In this document: in pieces, positions 4,102 through 12,217 of the stretch | How positions within the stretch are numbered: position 1 is the first letter of the stretch | Layout: each line of letters starts with the position of its first letter | Virus record (IMG/VR): IMGVR_UViG_3300020477_000175 | Span: 1-20,012 of that record | Source: a virus | Reading direction: 5' to 3' (one strand) | DNA: 20,012 nucleotides | The notes under the pieces: generated by a model | Seen by the model: the letters and a program-made list of their open reading frames with translations, nothing else | Database searches by the model: none | Told to the model about the DNA's origin: nothing | Made by a program: the position numbers and the translations under genes

Positions 4102-5475
4102 ATGGCATCATTTTTTAAAAGAGTACTTACAGCTGCGTTAGAGCGTAGGGAAGAAGTAAGAGATATTGAACTTGCTAGACAGGAAAAAGCTGTAGAGGTT
4201 GGTGTAGATCGACTTAAAAAAGCAGAACAAAATAGGATAAAAAAGTTAGAGGTAATTAAAAAAGGCACAAGAGCAGCCTTACCTATAGTCGATGCTGTAA
4301 AAGCTCAAAAGGGTATTGATGTAAGTCCTGAACTCGCTTTGGCTACACTTTCCGCATCAAATAATGATTCAGAACTAGCTATGAAAGTTTTATTAAGTAA
4401 AGGTTCACAATTAAAGCAAGTACAAACTGACGCATCTAAAGCTGAAAAACAAACACAAGAGTTACTATCTCAACCTACAACAATGCCAGCTAGTGTTCAA
4501 GCTGGTCAAGAAGCAGGTCAGATGGCAATACAGGCAACTAGAGCAGGTGAGTCAAAAGTAGGTGATATGTTTGTAAACGCTTTATTTGGAGCATTAACAG
4601 GACAACCTAATAGAAGCACTAGAGATATAATAAAAGAAAGATATGTTTCATTGTTTCCTGATGCTATGGAGGGTGAAAAGAATTACGAACAAGCAACAGC
4701 GTATTTATCTAAAGTTATAAGTGGTGAAGAAACTGATGACGATATGCCTACGTTACAAGGTGAAGAAGCAGGTATTATCTTACCAGCTATAAGCAGAGAA
4801 AAAGATAGAGAACCTTTTATGAATAAATTACCTACTGCTGTTCTTCGTGCATTAAAAGAGGATTATAAAAAAGCTGATGTAATTCGACAAAATTTTGATA
4901 TACCTCCAGGTCTATCTTTATCCCAAGCAAAAGAGTATATACTTAGAAGCAATAAAAAGGGAATTACTAAAGAACAGGCACTAGAAGAGATAGATAAAGT
5001 AGGTAACAGAAGAATAGCTATTGAAGAAAGAGCAAGAGATCTTTTTAATTCTGGATTACTGCCACTAGGATCTACAGCTTTTGAGGCTGTAAAAGAAGCA
5101 GAAAGACAATTAGATAATGGTTTAGACATAAGAGGTGTAGTTATACCTGCTAATGAAGAAAATCCAAATGCTCAATTTACAAAGGACAATATGAAACTTG
5201 CATTGACAAATAAAAAAGTCCTAAGAGAAACTAATATTAAAAAGAAAACTCAAGACTTATTAAGCATTGAAGATCCTGCTAAATTATTACAATGGGCTAG
5301 AAAAAATATTAAAAAAGAAAATGTAGAAAGGGATTTTGAAGGTCTTAAAATACGAAAGATTCAAGGTAAGTTTATTGCCACAAGAGAAGATGGTAAACAA
5401 TTTTTATTAAAACAAGAAGGTGTAGGTGACGGACTAAGAGGCTTAGTTGTTGATAAAGAATTGGGTGCAGAATGA
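4102..5475 (+). CDS. Unknown late-region protein with N-terminal coiled coil (457 aa)
   Basis: The ATG is one base after the previous stop, with only a G-rich stretch (GGGGG) as possible ribosome-binding site, so coupling to the upstream gene is likely. Residues about 10-55 are highly charged and heptad-like (ALERREEVRDIELARQEK and following), predicting a coiled coil. Residues about 75-170 are Ala/Gln-rich. A Gly-poor mixed-charge helical region follows to the end. No catalytic or membrane motif is seen. The stop overlaps the next start as ATGA, indicating stoichiometric coupled translation with the 1272-aa protein. By position and composition it may be a second internal virion or core protein; this is inference. 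Confidence 0.75.
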   Translation: MASFFKRVLTAALERREEVRDIELARQEKAVEVGVDRLKKAEQNRIKKLEVIKKGTRAALPIVDAVKAQKGIDVSPELALATLSASNNDSELAMKVLLSKGSQLKQVQTDASKAEKQTQELLSQPTTMPASVQAGQEAGQMAIQATRAGESKVGDMFVNALFGALTGQPNRSTRDIIKERYVSLFPDAMEGEKNYEQATAYLSKVISGEETDDDMPTLQGEEAGIILPAISREKDREPFMNKLPTAVLRALKEDYKKADVIRQNFDIPPGLSLSQAKEYILRSNKKGITKEQALEEIDKVGNRRIAIEERARDLFNSGLLPLGSTAFEAVKEAERQLDNGLDIRGVVIPANEENPNAQFTKDNMKLALTNKKVLRETNIKKKTQDLLSIEDPAKLLQWARKNIKKENVERDFEGLKIRKIQGKFIATREDGKQFLLKQEGVGDGLRGLVVDKELGAE

Positions 5476-8400
5476 GTGAAAGAACTGAAACTGACTTCAA
5501 CGATTTAAATACTAGAAATAGTTTAGTCAATAATACTGTTTTTGTAAATAAAGCACAAAATGTACTAACAGAAGTATTTGGTGATGAAGAACTATATGAA
5601 ACTGATGAAGATGTTATTGATGCATTTTATCAGAATTTTCGTGGTGTTGATGTTAATACTTTGGATTCAATGAGATTATATAATAAAATTGGTAACATAG
5701 ATGATTCTGTGAAACAAGATTTAAAAGAAGTTTATGAGGTGTATAGAGCGTTACCTAACTTTTGGGAAGATGATACTGCTAGTGCAGGACAAGCATTTAT
5801 AGATTATGCTTTAGGTATATTTAGTGATCCTTTAACATATGCATCTGTAATTGGTGGTTCTGGTGCTGCTGCCAAAGCTGCTGCATCTGGATTAGTTATG
5901 GCAGGTATAAAAAATGCAACAACAGCAGGATTAAAAACTGCTGCAATAACAAGCACTGGAATAGATGCAGCCAGTTCTGTTTTAGGTGATGCTTATGTGC
6001 AAAATGCAGAAAAAGAGTTAGAGTTAAGAGAAGAATATAGTATAGCTCAAGGAGCATTGGCAGCAGTCTCTACAGTAATTCCAGTAGCAGCCGTTAGTGC
6101 AGCCGTACCTGCTATTAAAGCAGGATTTAAAAAGATTAAACCTTCATCTACAGATATGGTTAAAGCTATAAGAGAGGGCAAAGAAGTATATTTGAAAGGT
6201 AGTGATGCAGGACAAGCGTTTCTTAAAAACGAAATGGTTGAAGGTAGTTTTGTTAATATACCTCAAAAAACAAAAACAGGAGAAAAATTTATTGATGAAA
6301 ATTTAGGATATGTTGAAACTATAGATCGGACAAATAATACTGCTGTAGTTAATGTAGGATTTGATGATGAGACAGGAAATGCAATACAAAAAACTGTATC
6401 ATTAAAAAAATTACAATTAGAAGATCCGTTTTCTACAAGAGTTCAAAAGAAAATAAATAAACAAGTTTTAAAAGATTCTCAAATATATAATACCGTTGCT
6501 GCAAAAGAAGGTTTTGAACAACTACAAAAAGAAATAATGGAAACATTAGGCATAAAACAAAGCGATATGCCTAGCGTTAATTTTATTCTCAGTGAAGAAG
6601 CTATAGGAAGATTAAACAATGTGTATTCAGATATCATCTTAGAATCTAAAATGATTTATAATCCTAATAAAAGAATATCACAAAATGTAGCAGATGCTAT
6701 AAGAAACGGAATGGGTGGATTTACTCAAGAAAGATTGTCTGAAATATTAGCAATGCATAGAATAAGTGCTGCTGAGTTTACAGCGTTTACTTCTGGGGGG
6801 TACATGGGTAGTATCAGTCAGGCTGCTAGTCTTTTAAGTAAACAAGGTAAACTTAAAAAAGATTTAACAAAAGAATTTTTGTCTGCATTAAATGGTGGTA
6901 TTAATGCAAGATACAAAAAAATAACTCAAAAATTAAAACCAGAAGAGTATTATGTTACAATAGGAAAAGAAGCATCTGAAAAACTTGAAGGTAAAAAATA
7001 CATAGGTGGTAGTGGAAAGAAAAGTGAAGCAGATCCTAAAGGTTATGATGATATAAATATAAAAAATGCAATATCAGATATTGTAGGAAACAAAGATTTT
7101 ACTCCAGATGCAGAAGCGTATTTTACTCAAGCATTAGCAGAGAGAGGTAAAACAGATAAGTGGGTAAGAAGTCTAGGTGATGACTCTTTTGTAAACAGAA
7201 TTATTAGATTAGGTATGATATCTCAACCTGCAACCACTGTTCGTAACATAATAGGTTTTGTAGTAAGATCTCCAGTGGACGCTGTTACAAGATCGTTTGA
7301 TAATGCTATAACTTCTGTATTTAATATGGCTGGAGGAGGACAGCAAGTGCGTCCTGTTAAGTGGTTAGATGGGTGGGATCATATATCGTCATTATTTAAT
7401 CCTCAAGAACATAAAATGCTGGTAGATTTTATAGCCTCTCAAAATCCAGAAATAAGAAAAAAGCTATTTAGTGGTCCTGAAGCATTTATGGAATCTATGG
7501 AATTAACCAAAGGTTTAAAAGGAGATAAAACAGGAATAATAAATAGAACAACAAATGGCGTAGAAAAAATGTTTGTAAAATTTAATGTGCTAAACCAATT
7601 ACAGGACAGGTACAATAAATCACAAGCATTTACTGTAGGTTTAAAACATTCTATGTGGAGGGATGGACTAGATTTTTTTGAATTTGTAAGAAAAGGTGAG
7701 TTAGAAAAGATAGATCCAAGATATTATGAAGAAGCTATGGAGTGGGCTTTAGAAGCAAACTACCAACTTCCAGGATTAGAAAAGTATCCTTTTGCAAATA
7801 TGTTACAGATGGCATCTAAATTACCTTTCGGTCTAGGTGCTGCTGTAATGCCTTTCCCAAAATTCTTTTTTAACAGCGTAAGATATATGTATCAACATAG
7901 CCCTGTTGCAACTGCTACTACCGCAATAGATTTAGCAGTAAGAAATTCTAAGCGAAAAGAGTTAGGTAAACTTACTAGCTTTGAAAAGCAAAAGTATATA
8001 AGAAAAATAAGTCAACAGATGGCTGGTAGTAGTTTAATTTTAACTGCTTTTGCTCTAAGAAACTCTGAATACGCAGGTGAGAAATGGAATGAGTTATTTG
8101 ATTATGACGGTGGTATATTAGATATTGCCACATGGTATCCTCTAGCACCAGCATTATATATTGCTGAAGGAATAAAACAACTTTTAGACTTTGATAATGT
8201 AAGTGACGTAGTAAAAAATACTGCCAGAGTATTTGGTTGGGAACCATCAAAAGAATATAGATCGGGAAGCTGGACTGATTTTACTACAGGTTATTCTGAA
8301 GAGTGGCGATTAAATTTTGGTAAAGCATTTGGTGGACCAACAACACGATCAGGTGTTTTTAAAATAATGGACGCAAACTTTTTAGCATCGTTAGTGTCTG

Positions 8401-9290
8401 GTGATGAAGATGCTGCTGGTGTAACCCAATCTTTACTAGGACAGTATATGGGATCTGTTTTAGGTGCAGTGTTACAGCCTGTAAAGATACCGACTGATAT
8501 ATATAGAGAATTTAACTTATCAGATGAGGTTAGATTATATAGAGAACACAGGACTTCTAAAGGGTTTATGGATAATTTTGTAAACATAATATTAAAGGAT
8601 ACACCTTTTGCAGAAGAACAATTAGTGACAGAAGATTCAGGACTAATTCAAGTTAATGATGATGGCTCTGTTGCTGGTTTTGCATTAACTCCTCCTGAGG
8701 AGGGTAAATTTGTACCTGCATACAAATATACTGCACTTAACCCTAAACCTTTAAGAATATCAGCACCTTTAATGAAGCAACTTACAGGTGCTTTTAGAAG
8801 AGATAAAAGAACAGCAGTTGAATCTGAATTTGCTAGATTAGGTATACCTGAATTTAAATTATTTAGAAGAACAAAGATACCTGAGTATGATCGTGTGTTA
8901 AAAGGTTTAACTGCAAAATTTATTTCAGGACCACTGTATGAGTACATAAACAGTAAAGAATATAGAGAAATAGATGATATTGTTTTAAAAACTTTTCTGT
9001 TAAATAAAGTAGCTAGTAAAATGAAATCTCAAGTTAGCAGTAAGGTAAACTCTTTAACAGTTCCTGGAATAATGAATAAGATAAATAGGCATAAACCTGT
9101 TGTAAAAAGATATATAATAGACGCTGCAATGGAAGCAGGTATGTTAAACAAAGATGGAGAAGTAACAGATAAATATAGCATCAAAGGTTTTTCTGGAGAA
9201 GAATTACAATTAATTGAACAAGCAAGTAAAAATTTTACTAAGTATATAACAGGAGTAAGTAAACTGTATATGTATCAAGGTAATCAATAA
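5472..9290 (+). CDS. Giant putative internal virion / DNA-ejection protein (1272 aa)
   Basis: This is the largest gene of the window and starts within the ATGA overlap with the previous gene. Residues about 105-215 form a long Ala/Gly-rich hydrophobic stretch (FIDYALGIFSDPLTYASVIG; later ALAAVSTVIPVAAVSAAVPA), compatible with membrane-penetrating helices. A second well-ordered region (about 575-620) includes ISQPATTVRNIIGFVVRSP, and further hydrophobic patches occur near 786-815 and 848-870. Many mixed helical segments follow to the end. Size, composition and location between structural genes and the lysis genes match the large internal virion (gp16-like) proteins of podoviruses that build the ejection conduit. 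No lytic transglycosylase motif was recognised, so the assignment rests on context and architecture. Confidence 0.8.
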   Translation: MSERTETDFNDLNTRNSLVNNTVFVNKAQNVLTEVFGDEELYETDEDVIDAFYQNFRGVDVNTLDSMRLYNKIGNIDDSVKQDLKEVYEVYRALPNFWEDDTASAGQAFIDYALGIFSDPLTYASVIGGSGAAAKAAASGLVMAGIKNATTAGLKTAAITSTGIDAASSVLGDAYVQNAEKELELREEYSIAQGALAAVSTVIPVAAVSAAVPAIKAGFKKIKPSSTDMVKAIREGKEVYLKGSDAGQAFLKNEMVEGSFVNIPQKTKTGEKFIDENLGYVETIDRTNNTAVVNVGFDDETGNAIQKTVSLKKLQLEDPFSTRVQKKINKQVLKDSQIYNTVAAKEGFEQLQKEIMETLGIKQSDMPSVNFILSEEAIGRLNNVYSDIILESKMIYNPNKRISQNVADAIRNGMGGFTQERLSEILAMHRISAAEFTAFTSGGYMGSISQAASLLSKQGKLKKDLTKEFLSALNGGINARYKKITQKLKPEEYYVTIGKEASEKLEGKKYIGGSGKKSEADPKGYDDINIKNAISDIVGNKDFTPDAEAYFTQALAERGKTDKWVRSLGDDSFVNRIIRLGMISQPATTVRNIIGFVVRSPVDAVTRSFDNAITSVFNMAGGGQQVRPVKWLDGWDHISSLFNPQEHKMLVDFIASQNPEIRKKLFSGPEAFMESMELTKGLKGDKTGIINRTTNGVEKMFVKFNVLNQLQDRYNKSQAFTVGLKHSMWRDGLDFFEFVRKGELEKIDPRYYEEAMEWALEANYQLPGLEKYPFANMLQMASKLPFGLGAAVMPFPKFFFNSVRYMYQHSPVATATTAIDLAVRNSKRKELGKLTSFEKQKYIRKISQQMAGSSLILTAFALRNSEYAGEKWNELFDYDGGILDIATWYPLAPALYIAEGIKQLLDFDNVSDVVKNTARVFGWEPSKEYRSGSWTDFTTGYSEEWRLNFGKAFGGPTTRSGVFKIMDANFLASLVSGDEDAAGVTQSLLGQYMGSVLGAVLQPVKIPTDIYREFNLSDEVRLYREHRTSKGFMDNFVNIILKDTPFAEEQLVTEDSGLIQVNDDGSVAGFALTPPEEGKFVPAYKYTALNPKPLRISAPLMKQLTGAFRRDKRTAVESEFARLGIPEFKLFRRTKIPEYDRVLKGLTAKFISGPLYEYINSKEYREIDDIVLKTFLLNKVASKMKSQVSSKVNSLTVPGIMNKINRHKPVVKRYIIDAAMEAGMLNKDGEVTDKYSIKGFSGEELQLIEQASKNFTKYITGVSKLYMYQGNQ

Positions 9291-9613
9291 TGCAATCACT
9301 GGACAGCATATCACTGGACCTAACCAATGCCCTAGTACCCCTCATTGCTATCTTCCTCAGTCTAGGGCTTGGTTTTTTTATAAAAGACCTACTAACAAAT
9401 TTTATTACTGGTATTAGATTTAAATTTGATGGCAGTTTTAATGAAGGAGATAAATGCATTGTTGATGGAGACAGGGCAGTGCTAGTTAAAGTAGGAATAT
9501 ATGAGAGCGTATTTGCCATAACTAATGGTAGAGGCCATGTCTGGAGATATGTTCCTAATGAAAGAATTAAGTTTCTAAAAATAGAAAAGATAATAGAGGA
9601 GCCTAAAGAATGA
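9290..9613 (+). CDS. Minimal MscS-like membrane protein (one TM helix plus beta domain, 107 aa)
   Basis: The start overlaps the previous stop as TAATG. Residues 14-40 form one hydrophobic helix (LVPLIAIFLSLGLGFF) running into DLLTNFITGI, which resembles the pore-lining third helix and hinge of MscS-type mechanosensitive channels. It is followed by a short beta-rich domain with the MscS-like order F..GD.C.VDG (50-60), a V.VGIYESVF strand (66-75) and YVPNERI (88-94), the counterpart of the family's IPN.KI motif. Full MscS has two or more extra N-terminal helices (about 280 aa), so this is a stripped-down version. It precedes a holin-like gene, with which it overlaps (ATGA). A pore or lysis-related membrane role is plausible; the exact function is not known. 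Confidence 0.75.
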   Translation: MQSLDSISLDLTNALVPLIAIFLSLGLGFFIKDLLTNFITGIRFKFDGSFNEGDKCIVDGDRAVLVKVGIYESVFAITNGRGHVWRYVPNERIKFLKIEKIIEEPKE

Positions 9614-10071
9614 TTACAATACTAGGATCATTAATTGGTTTTGCAGGATCTGCATTACCAAAAGCATTTGATATGTTCTCAGATTGGCAAGACAGAAAAC
9701 ACGAATTGGCAATGATGGATCGTCAGATAGAGGCATCCAAATTAGCACATACGCAAAAACTAGAAGCACTTAATATAGAAGCAGATATAAGTGAAAGCAA
9801 GGCTTTATACAAACATGATCAGTCCATGAAGTCTACAGGGTTTATGGCAGGATTAAGAGCCAGTGTCAGACCAGTTATAACATATTTATTCTTTACACTG
9901 TTTGCAGCTATTAAAGGTACGGCACTGTATGGTTTAATATATACTGACGGTATTGTATGGGAAATAGCTATACAGACACTGTGGGATGAAGAAACACAAG
10001 GCATATTTGCTGCTATTATCTCATTCTGGTTTGGAAGTCGCGCACTTCAGAGATCTAGAAGCAGTTCGTAA
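9610..10071 (+). CDS. Holin-like protein, GTA-type 3TM family (153 aa)
   Basis: The start overlaps the preceding stop (ATGA). The architecture is a short hydrophobic N-terminus (residues 2-16), a charged coiled-coil-like segment (25-75, with RKHELAMMDRQIEASKLAH), a membrane segment at 87-111 (RPVITYLFFTLFAAIKG), and a last hydrophobic segment with FAAIISFWFGSRAL (133-146). The RP...Y start of the second membrane helix and the FWFGSR end motif are typical of the 3TM holin family first described for gene-transfer-agent release. Its role would be to permeabilise the inner membrane so the downstream lysozyme reaches peptidoglycan. Three unrelated small genes separate it from the lysozyme. Confidence 0.8.
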   Translation: MITILGSLIGFAGSALPKAFDMFSDWQDRKHELAMMDRQIEASKLAHTQKLEALNIEADISESKALYKHDQSMKSTGFMAGLRASVRPVITYLFFTLFAAIKGTALYGLIYTDGIVWEIAIQTLWDEETQGIFAAIISFWFGSRALQRSRSSS

Positions 10072-10088
10072 TAATTATATGGTAAATC

Positions 10089-10358
10089 ATGGGTTACTAC
10101 AGAAGATATTATATGCAAGAGGAAACTGAAATGAACGCTATATTAGATAATCTGGGAGGTTGTGGTAAAGAAAGTATACTTTTAAAAGAAAGGACTAATA
10201 ATATGGCTGAAGACATGAACGAGTATTTTGATACATATCATAAAGAGTCTAAATGCGACAGTTGTATAGAATGTAATTGTGACCCTTGTGTATGTAAATG
10301 CAGTTGTCATAAAAGTCCATTTGACAAAACAGAAATATTTAAAAATAAAGGAGAATAA
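10089..10358 (+). CDS. Cysteine-rich mini-protein with putative metal-binding cluster (89 or 75 aa)
   Basis: No family is recognised. The C-terminal half contains CDSCIECNCDPCVCKCSCH, eight cysteines and a histidine in 19 residues, plus one Cys in LGGCGK upstream. Such density of CxC and CxxC pairs suggests metal (zinc, copper or Fe-S) binding in the manner of metallothionein-like peptides. Two starts are possible: 10089 (weak ribosome-binding site) or the ATG at 10131, which has GAGG eight bases upstream and gives 75 aa. The N-terminal MGYYRRYYMQEE extension would be lost with the second start. It lies just before an Fe-S carrier gene, which makes a metal-handling role attractive but unproven. 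Confidence 0.7.
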   Translation: MGYYRRYYMQEETEMNAILDNLGGCGKESILLKERTNNMAEDMNEYFDTYHKESKCDSCIECNCDPCVCKCSCHKSPFDKTEIFKNKGE

Positions 10359-10458: not shown

Positions 10459-10785
10459 ATGCTAAATATTACTCAAGAAGCTAAAAACTATCTACGAGAT
10501 ATTACAAAAGAACATAATAAGGAGTATATAGCTTTTGGTGTAAAGGGTGGAGGATGTTCTGGATTTTCTTACATATGGGATTTTTCTGATGGTCCTCTTA
10601 AAGAAGATGAACTAATAGATATAGGAGATGGTGTATCTCTTATAGTAGACGGTATGAGTGTTATGTATACACTAGGAAGTAAAATAGATTACGTTAAGGA
10701 ACTAGGTGGTACATACTTAAAAGTATCAAACCCTATGGCAGACAGCCAATGCGGTTGTGGAGAATCTTTTTCAGTTAAGGTGTAA
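10459..10785 (+). CDS. A-type Fe-S cluster carrier, IscA/HesB family (108 aa)
   Basis: The protein has the full-length family fold and size (IscA and ErpA are about 105-115 aa). The three conserved cluster-ligand cysteines are present: C33 in GGGCSGFSY, and C98 and C100 in the C-terminal QCGCGESF. The start is TAAATTAAATG just after the poly-Lys gene, without a clear Shine-Dalgarno, so translational coupling is likely. A-type carriers accept Fe-S clusters and pass them to target enzymes in the cytoplasm. Phage copies are known as auxiliary genes in marine phages. In this genome a Cas4/AddB-like nuclease (16348-17217) with a four-Cys motif is an obvious possible client. Family assignment is firm; the client is inferred. 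Confidence 0.93.
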   Translation: MLNITQEAKNYLRDITKEHNKEYIAFGVKGGGCSGFSYIWDFSDGPLKEDELIDIGDGVSLIVDGMSVMYTLGSKIDYVKELGGTYLKVSNPMADSQCGCGESFSVKV

Positions 10786-10791
10786 TTAAAC

Positions 10792-11238
10792 GTGAGAAGA
10801 ATGACTGATGAAGGGTTAGACCTTATTAAATTTTATGAAGGGTATTCCTCTTCTGCATACCTCTGCCCTGCCCAACATTGGACAATAGGCTATGGGGCTA
10901 TTTGGGGGATGGATAATAAGAGAGTAACAGAGGATCATCCTGATATAAATAAAGATCAGGCAGACTATCTATTAAGAAGGGATGTAAGAAAATCAGAAGT
11001 TGCAGTATTACGACTAATAAAAGTACCGTTAGAAGATGGACAGTTTAATTCACTTTGTTCATTTGTATTCAATTTAGGTAGCGGTTCTTTACAAAGCAGT
11101 ACATTAAGACGTAAAATCAATAGGGGGGATTATATTGGTGCAGCAAATGAATTTCCAAGGTGGATATGGGCTGGAGGAAGAAAATTAAAAGGATTAATAA
11201 AGAGGAGAAACGATGAGCGATTAATGTTTCTTGGATGA
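10792..11238 (+). CDS. GH24 lysozyme (endolysin), 148 aa
   Basis: This T4-lysozyme-like muramidase hydrolyses peptidoglycan at the end of infection. The GH24 signature E-x8-D/C-x5-T is visible as E16-GYSSSAYL-C25-PAQHW-T31, followed by IGYG. Here Cys occupies the position that is Asp in T4 lysozyme, as in some other GH24 phage enzymes. The C-terminal part contains LCSFVFNLGSGSLQSST and WIWAGGRKLKGLIKRR, the expected helical lobe and arginine-rich end. There is no N-terminal signal or SAR helix, so it needs a holin, consistent with the upstream membrane genes. The frame opens with GTG at 10792; the in-frame ATG at 10801 is an equally possible start, giving 145 aa. Confidence 0.93.
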   Translation: MRRMTDEGLDLIKFYEGYSSSAYLCPAQHWTIGYGAIWGMDNKRVTEDHPDINKDQADYLLRRDVRKSEVAVLRLIKVPLEDGQFNSLCSFVFNLGSGSLQSSTLRRKINRGDYIGAANEFPRWIWAGGRKLKGLIKRRNDERLMFLG

Positions 11239-11282: not shown

Positions 11283-11564
11283 CTATGGGGTATTAGTAAT
11301 AAATATCCTAAATAAACTTGTAGCAATAGTAGCTAGAGCAAAACTGTTTATTACCATTAATGCTCTGTCATTCCAAAGCATCCCTACAATCATCCACCCT
11401 GCAATCCCTACGAAATGGAAATAAAGATTAACAGGGTAGATGTTGTTGGACGTAAGTAACATACCAATCATAAGAACTACACTAGAGAACCACTTGATAT
11501 ACCAATCAAGGGTATACAGGGGGGTTTTGGTTACAATACTAGTTCCGTTGTGGTTGTCACTCAT
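11283..11564 (-). CDS. Small three-TM membrane protein (93 aa)
   Basis: This is the last gene of the minus-strand block; its stop is 44 nt from the lysozyme stop on the other strand. Three hydrophobic segments are visible at about 25-40 (FSSVVLMIGMLLTS), 46-64 (NLYFHFVGIAGWMIVGMLW) and 69-88 (LMVINSFALATIATSLF), preceded by the pattern TPLYTLDWYIKW. The LDWYIKW...GIAGW..G.LW.DRAL pattern recalls a family of small phage membrane proteins of unknown function (possibly DUF6552, from memory and uncertain). It is not one of the holin families I can recognise, though a role at the inner membrane is likely. The start lies eight nucleotides after the preceding 42-aa gene. Confidence 0.8.
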   Translation of the reverse strand: MSDNHNGTSIVTKTPLYTLDWYIKWFSSVVLMIGMLLTSNNIYPVNLYFHFVGIAGWMIVGMLWNDRALMVINSFALATIATSLFRIFITNTP

Positions 11565-11836: not shown

Positions 11837-12217
11837 CTATTTTGAGTCATTTTTATTGCTAAAAGTAGTATCTGTTACCTCTCCAGTAGTTCCAGCATCC
11901 ACCATACATAAAGAATTTATATCTTTAGGCATTATTACATTAGCAGACCATGTTCCTGTCTTTTTATTAAGATGAATTATAGTAACATGACCTCTTTCTG
12001 ATACACCTCTGAATACAATTCTTTCTTTATGTATACCTTCAATTATTCCAGCTGCTATCGGAAGAGGCTTACAAGTTATAGAACTTTTAGGTTGTGACCA
12101 AGCTACTGAGATATTCATACAAATTACAAAGATAAGTATAAATATACAAGCAACAAAATAAGTATTACTAAAAATATCAAATTTAATTTTTTGTATAAGT
12201 TCTTTTATTAAATTCAT
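11837..12217 (-). CDS. Membrane-anchored or secreted small protein (126 aa)
   Basis: The start has the strong ribosome-binding site AAGGAGGTAAAAATG, which overlaps the TAA of the upstream nuclease gene. Residues about 19-39 form one hydrophobic segment (FVACIFILIFVICMNISVAW) followed by SQPKSSITC, which reads either as a signal anchor or as a signal peptide with cleavage near AWS-Q. The remaining 85 residues look like a small beta-rich domain (ERIVFRGVSERGHVTIIHLN, then TGTWSANVIMP and SLCMVDAG) with two cysteines, presumably on the periplasmic side. Similar small exported proteins of unknown role are common in marine phages, by my recollection. Function is not known. Confidence 0.8.
   Translation of the reverse strand: MNLIKELIQKIKFDIFSNTYFVACIFILIFVICMNISVAWSQPKSSITCKPLPIAAGIIEGIHKERIVFRGVSERGHVTIIHLNKKTGTWSANVIMPKDINSLCMVDAGTTGEVTDTTFSNKNDSK

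Follow-up and report, generated by a model that had tools for sequence, protein, structure and literature searches.

Why would a marine phage encode a protein that resembles the mechanosensitive channel MscS, shorn of its sensor helices, directly ahead of its lysis genes? The question is raised by a 20-kb IMG/VR virus sequence, IMGVR_UViG_3300020477_000175, of which the whole stretch analyzed (20,012 nucleotides) is referred to here as the window. The gene concerned, mini-MscS, occupies positions 9290..9613 of the plus strand and encodes 107 amino acids that correspond to TM3 and the beta-domain of MscS only. The first-pass annotation had described an open reading frame with MscS motifs that is coupled to the genes on both sides, and both points hold. 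The quoted motifs occur in the 107-aa frame, its start shares 1 base with the stop of the upstream gene (TAATG, 9288..9292, plus strand), and its stop shares 4 bases with the start of the downstream gene (ATGA, 9610..9613, plus strand). The annotation also knew of no described phage function for such a protein, and our search of the open-access literature for a phage MscS-type lysis protein likewise found no counterpart.

Conservation and relationship to MscS

Relatives of mini-MscS were found at 25 IMG/VR loci (61-100% identical). Between the window and one of these, L005, more than half of the synonymous sites differ (pS 0.56), with a single amino-acid change. The dN/dS of mini-MscS, calculated for the window against the six relatives with estimable dS (0.5-1.4), is 0.004-0.047; that of the lysozyme encoded nearby is higher, at 0.06-0.08. 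The mini-MscS frame is a real gene under strong purifying selection. Constraint increases toward the beta-domain, the mean pairwise identity being 0.49 for the TM segment, 0.70 for residues 32-48, 0.79 for residues 49-78 and 0.89 for residues 79-107.

Judging from sequence comparison, it is nearly certain that mini-MscS is homologous to TM3 and the beta-domain of MscS. The top 21 matches of a single-sequence phmmer search against the PDB were all MscS-family chains (best E 0.011), colinear over residues 7-95; a PDB search with a profile built on the family's shallow alignment gave weaker matches than the single sequence did and still placed MSL10 at the top. With a profile of 13 relatives, the TM3/beta-domain sites of six E. 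coli MscS paralogues were located, all in one register. Alignment of the phage family with these six paralogues using hhalign, which was unselected in that the paralogues were chosen independently of the phage family, gave a score of 42.7 and a probability of 92.9, against a maximum score of 17.3 among 120 column-shuffled family controls. In a blind family-profile search of 398 Pseudomonadota genomes, translated in six frames, 153 contained a match at E<=0.1 (best 4.5e-7). All 30 of the 30 genomic loci retrieved were of the MscS type by their aligned pore-helix and beta-domain motifs, nearly all with IPN or VPN, and the one retrieved bacterial match tested hits PF00924. The hhalign probability against the retrieved bacterial loci was 98.4, these loci having been pre-selected by the same profile. 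Identity of mini-MscS to cellular MscS is approximately 20-27%. The window protein has no curated Pfam match, that to PF00924 included (curated cut-off 20.2 bits; best relative 15.7), and its PHROG matches are weak.

Structure prediction for the monomer, proposed by the first-pass annotation as a check against MscS, was run as two models. AlphaFold model 1, built from 11 close relatives of the phage family only, had a pLDDT of 55 and gave no MscS match in Foldseek. Model 2, to which rows of MscM were added, had a pLDDT of 73 with a helix at residues 2-46 and five strands; the best 50 PDB matches listed for it by Foldseek were all of the MscS family (TM-score 0.52-0.65), a result that is partly circular owing to the MscM rows. 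The sequence-based tests described above are independent of this MscM-seeded model.

The retained parts follow the order of MscS. A hydrophobic helix at residues 13-31 (9326..9382, plus strand; hydropathy 2.0-2.3 in four relatives) aligns to MscS TM3a and is followed by a TM3b-like amphipathic helix at residues 32-48 (9383..9433, plus strand), which contains KDLLTNFITG and in which N37 and G41 match MscS N117 and G121. The beta-domain and C-terminal tail (residues 49-107; 9434..9610, plus strand; SFNEGDKCIVDG ... NGRGHVWRYVPNERIKFLKIEKIIEE) form the most conserved part. Residues are acidic before the helix at 13-31 and basic after it, which points to an N-out/C-in topology like that of MscS TM3. 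The register N37=N117, G41=G121 and G53=G133 aligns the invariant L25 with L105 of E. coli MscS and F/L29 with L109. L105 is the gate residue of MscS, and L25 and F29 are the predicted gate of mini-MscS. A hydrophobic gate position and the topology of MscS are thus predicted to be kept.

Much else is missing or changed. The sensor helices TM1 and TM2 are absent, as mini-MscS has a single hydrophobic segment with 12 residues ahead of it, and cellular MscS relatives carry 67-492 residues before the aligned region. The C-terminal alpha/beta cage is absent as well: mini-MscS stops 14 residues past the last aligned residue (93), and the cellular relatives continue for more than 120 residues past the aligned region. 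This single segment, together with phmmer, the shuffle-controlled hhalign comparison and the blind genome search, bears out the earlier description of a stripped-down MscS TM3 and beta-domain without sensor helices. In the upper part of TM3, the Ala/Gly pattern seen in MscS is not kept (A98/G101/A102 are replaced by L18/I21/F22), so a tight pore of the MscS type cannot be taken for granted. A 3-residue insertion stands just before VPN, and the last third of the protein (GRGHVWRYVPNERIKFLKIEKIIEE), which hardly varies, is peculiar to the phage family. By sequence, mini-MscS belongs to the MscS superfamily without canonical channel architecture, and perhaps works like a co-holin.

The same pattern of retention and loss would suit a poison subunit, which would join host MscS rings through the shared beta-domain, jam them shut or open and so block the venting of turgor during lysis. 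The pore helix and beta-domain are kept while sensor and cage are lost, and the conserved beta-domain could be the interface; the low identity to cellular MscS noted above, however, makes such mixed rings improbable in our judgment.

A discrete cassette among lysis genes

The window is assigned to the HMO-2011-type marine phages on the similarity of its DNA polymerase (39-44% to CRP-212, CRP-3 and HMO-2011), which carries a DnaJ-like zinc motif, and of its internal virion protein, part of which matches those of HMO-2011 and CRP-345 at 24-26%. This polymerase with its DnaJ-like zinc motif is a hallmark of HMO-2011-type phages, which are described as a dominant, broadly distributed marine viral group (PMC9038755). 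An annotated counterpart of mini-MscS is absent at the corresponding places in HMO-2011, CRP-212 and CRP-345, and tblastn of mini-MscS against 50,697 phage records returned no relatives; mini-MscS is therefore regarded as accessory. The same phage records searched by tblastn with E. coli MscS gave 17 records, several of which are plainly bacterial sequence. No relative was found in GTDB genome contigs scanned with the phage family, nor was any found in viral contigs scanned with the nearest cellular MscS type.

Mini-MscS lies between a 1272-aa internal-virion-like protein (5472..9290, plus strand) and a 153-aa holin-like membrane protein (9610..10071, plus strand; phrog_6637). The latter had been called a 3TM holin-like gene, which we can support: it has three hydrophobic segments, and PF11351 (GTA_holin_3TM) matches its relative in Pelagibacter phage Mosig above the cut-off. 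In AcaML1, MW202825 and MW202481, the relatives of this protein are encoded beside lysozyme genes. The same operon continues with an 89-aa cysteine-rich protein (10089..10358, plus strand), an ErpA/IscA-type Fe-S protein (10459..10785, plus strand; TIGR00049 above cut-off), which is often co-located with mini-MscS, and a GH24 phage lysozyme (10792..11238, plus strand). The lysozyme has no SAR/TM segment; its N-terminus, MRRMTDEGLDLIKFYEGYSS, contains no hydrophobic segment, and its predicted catalytic Glu is at residue 16.

Several features of this region were observed in passing. The 89-aa protein, beside the Fe-S assembly gene, contains a dense cysteine cluster (CDSCIECNCDPCVCKCSCH) and has relatives in several contigs, and the Fe-S gene, inside the lysis operon, accompanies mini-MscS in several groups. 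On the minus strand, a DUF6552 membrane protein (11283-11564) faces the lysozyme gene and is kept in part of the relatives (71-100%), and a 126-aa protein with a signal-like N-terminal helix (11837-12217) is kept in most relatives with enough flank. In Pelagibacter phage HTVC033P (L034; 10525-11541, minus strand), a different lysis set occupies the corresponding place; there the genes that follow the giant protein encode a small coiled-coil/TM protein, an amidase carrying a lysozyme annotation and a membrane protein of phrog_2524.

Across the relatives, mini-MscS is followed directly by the 153-aa holin-like gene in 16 of 25, with lysozyme nearly always further on and the cysteine-rich and Fe-S genes also downstream in part of these 16. 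The ATGA junction is kept in the 16 relatives that have the holin-like neighbor. At three loci (L015-L017), the 153-aa gene is missing and a different membrane-protein gene follows mini-MscS (phrog_38283 in L015); GH24 lysozyme was not found near mini-MscS at these three. L020 shows another order, namely holin-like (phrog_2524), Fe-S, 92 aa, mini-MscS, 67 aa, a 72-aa 2-TM protein, lysozyme, terS and terL, and L022 has a similar gene order from the Fe-S gene onward. L020 and L022 are of the HMO-2011 type, the TerL of L020 being 80% identical to that of HMO-2011; HMO-2011 itself lacks the mini-MscS insert at the equivalent place, which holds holin-like gp58, gp57 and the lysozyme gp56. Taken with the window-type locus, L020 and L022 indicate that one phage group holds mini-MscS in two places, both at lysis genes. 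Like a holin, mini-MscS is a small membrane protein with an endolysin gene nearby; the protein that is homologous to a described holin family is its neighbor and not mini-MscS itself (no Pfam match and no match in the PHROG lysis category).

What other phages place ahead of the holin-like gene was examined in a scan for the 153-aa family, which yielded 80 loci, 2 with mini-MscS and 78 without. In 58 of the 78, by a simple hydropathy rule and among partly redundant loci, a small 2-TM protein lies directly upstream of the holin-like gene, often with an ATGA overlap. These upstream proteins belong to a single sequence family, of which the 72-aa neighbor in L020 and L022 is also a member. Lysozyme of the type seen in the window is within 3 kb at only 2 of the 80 loci. 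By gene order, mini-MscS occupies what appears to be the slot that other marine phages give to a small membrane protein partnering the holin-like one. Both proteins are present in L020 and L022, which means that one does not strictly replace the other. The slot and the position in the lysis module favor a membrane or lysis accessory role.

The upstream genes of AcaML1, Mosig, MW202825, MW202481 and Bradyrhizobium phage ppBjS10J-1 were considered as distant versions of mini-MscS and proved unrelated. As a separate observation, many marine viral contigs (L163-L240) carry 2-TM proteins of 71-125 aa before the GTA-holin-like gene, and in several the N-terminus resembles an EF-hand (DLNNDGVVTEEEL; PF13202 at best E 3.7e-4, below cut-off). 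A calcium-sensing holin partner is a possible reading of this family from its sequence.

Occupation of this slot also bears on a pore-less regulator of lysis, in which a membrane-anchored beta-domain protein would bind, delay or activate the neighboring holin as an antiholin or co-holin. Such a role would account for the overlapping genes, the conserved ATGA junction and the use of the same slot by the 2-TM family. We consider it unlikely, however, since the beta-domain remains almost unchanged while the adjacent holin-like protein varies (phrog_6637, phrog_38283, phrog_2524), a pattern that speaks against a surface fitted to a single holin.

Comparison of flanking DNA separates mini-MscS from its upstream neighbor. 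DNA identity to close relatives rises from approximately 40% to 96-98% exactly at 9290, and such a rise at the start of mini-MscS is seen in 9 of 9 comparisons with differing upstream sequence. Where conservation of the internal virion protein is only 22-38%, that of mini-MscS is 89-100%, and in L015 both flanks of mini-MscS are unrelated to the window. Between the window and L014, the flanks are 95-100% identical, whereas most of mini-MscS (9350-9590) has 81-90% DNA identity, an apparent swap of the mini-MscS gene alone. Mini-MscS moves as a discrete cassette, independently of the internal virion protein.

A part in the virion or the ejection conduit had been suggested earlier, and in the window mini-MscS does lie directly downstream of, and overlapping, the gene of the giant internal protein to which it would be coupled. 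Its behavior as a discrete cassette speaks against co-evolution with that protein: the identity boundary falls at the gene start, the gene is conserved independently, and in L020 and L022 it sits on the terS side, away from the internal-protein gene. Mini-MscS is also missing from relatives of HMO-2011 whose internal proteins are homologous, and co-inheritance with virion genes was tested and was not found. We therefore regard this role as highly improbable.

Proposed function

Tentatively, and with somewhat less than even confidence, we propose that mini-MscS is a homo-oligomeric mini-pore of the inner membrane that acts as an accessory lysis or permeability factor. For this protein we infer oligomerization, conductance and an effect on lysis. 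As the first gene of the late lysis cassette, mini-MscS would be expressed along with the 3-TM holin-like protein and the soluble lysozyme, and its product would self-assemble by way of the conserved beta-domain to give an inner-membrane ring. The beta-domain is a ring-forming part of MscS and the most constrained part of mini-MscS. The ring would constitute a small pore for ions or solutes, with the N-terminus out and the C-terminus in, and late in infection ions would leak, or small solutes be vented, through it. This leak would set the trigger point of the true holin or make it sharper; the 3-TM protein would then open the hole through which the soluble lysozyme exits.

The form of the lysozyme limits what a small pore could do. 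Without a SAR/TM segment on the enzyme, a small pore alone could not release it, and a large hole is needed. A strict pinholin role, one of the options raised earlier, is accordingly unlikely, as the lysozyme, with its predicted catalytic Glu at residue 16, has no room for an N-terminal SAR/TM segment. A pinholin acting alone was rejected because the SAR/TM-anchored endolysin that would be its partner is absent at 10792-11238. A more specific form of the mini-pore proposal, which we hold to be possible and rather doubtful, is a two-part lysis device in which the 107-aa sensorless MscS pore replaces the usual 2-TM partner of the 3-TM holin and provides controlled leakage or release of turgor before the hole opens.

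Protection against osmotic shock was also suggested earlier, with mini-MscS as a safety valve supplied by the phage against early bursting or downshock of the infected cell. Homology to an osmotic channel and strong conservation are in keeping with it, and co-location with the auxiliary Fe-S gene suggests a host-support module; the gene pattern may also be that of an auxiliary gene carried along with the Fe-S gene. However, the tension-sensing TM1/TM2 paddles are gone, the gene is placed among lysis genes and overlaps them, and cultured related phages without it exist. We judge such a valve slightly less likely than the pore-less regulator.

Should mini-MscS form the proposed mini-pore, it would be the smallest known MscS-type channel, would indicate that TM3 and the beta-domain suffice for membrane assembly, and would offer a direct test of the interplay between turgor venting and holin triggering. 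If the lysis role is true, it would be the first MscS-family protein placed in phage lysis, as far as the open-access literature searched shows. Our findings suggest that marine phages recycled a bacterial safety-valve channel as a late-infection membrane tool.

Comparison with known systems

Mini-MscS shares with E. coli MscS, YnaI, MscK and MscM and with T. tengcongensis MscS the KD/NxxxG pore helix, the F..GD start of the beta-domain, the PN motif and the register. It differs from these bacterial channels in lacking TM1/TM2 and the cage, in the 3-residue insertion before VPN and in its own conserved end, GRGHVWRYVPNERIKFLKIEKIIEE. With loci of GTA_holin_3TM (PF11351) that have upstream 2-TM proteins, it shares the slot and the overlapping 3-TM holin-like gene; in contrast to holin models, to which it has no sequence relation, it combines one TM helix with a cytosolic beta-domain. 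Like pinholins, such as that of lambdoid phage 21, mini-MscS is a small phage membrane protein that could make small pores. Pinholins work with SAR endolysins, and mini-MscS differs from them in its predicted cytosolic C-terminal domain and in being accompanied by a lysozyme without a SAR segment.

A 174-aa PDB chain (9BGT/9BGQ) aligns to mini-MscS residues 17-93 (E 0.038). These 174-aa MscS-domain chains are probably microsporidian MscS2. The closest known minimal channel to the phage mini-MscS is microsporidian MscS2 (Nematocida displodere), which is likewise an MscS cut to a TM3-like helix and the beta-domain. MscS2 differs in being longer (174-aa deposited chain versus 107 aa), in belonging to a eukaryotic parasite without a link to lysis, and in representing a separate truncation. 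MscS2 forms heptamers in vitro, and minimal proteins of TM3 and beta-domain can thus do so (PMC11262690).
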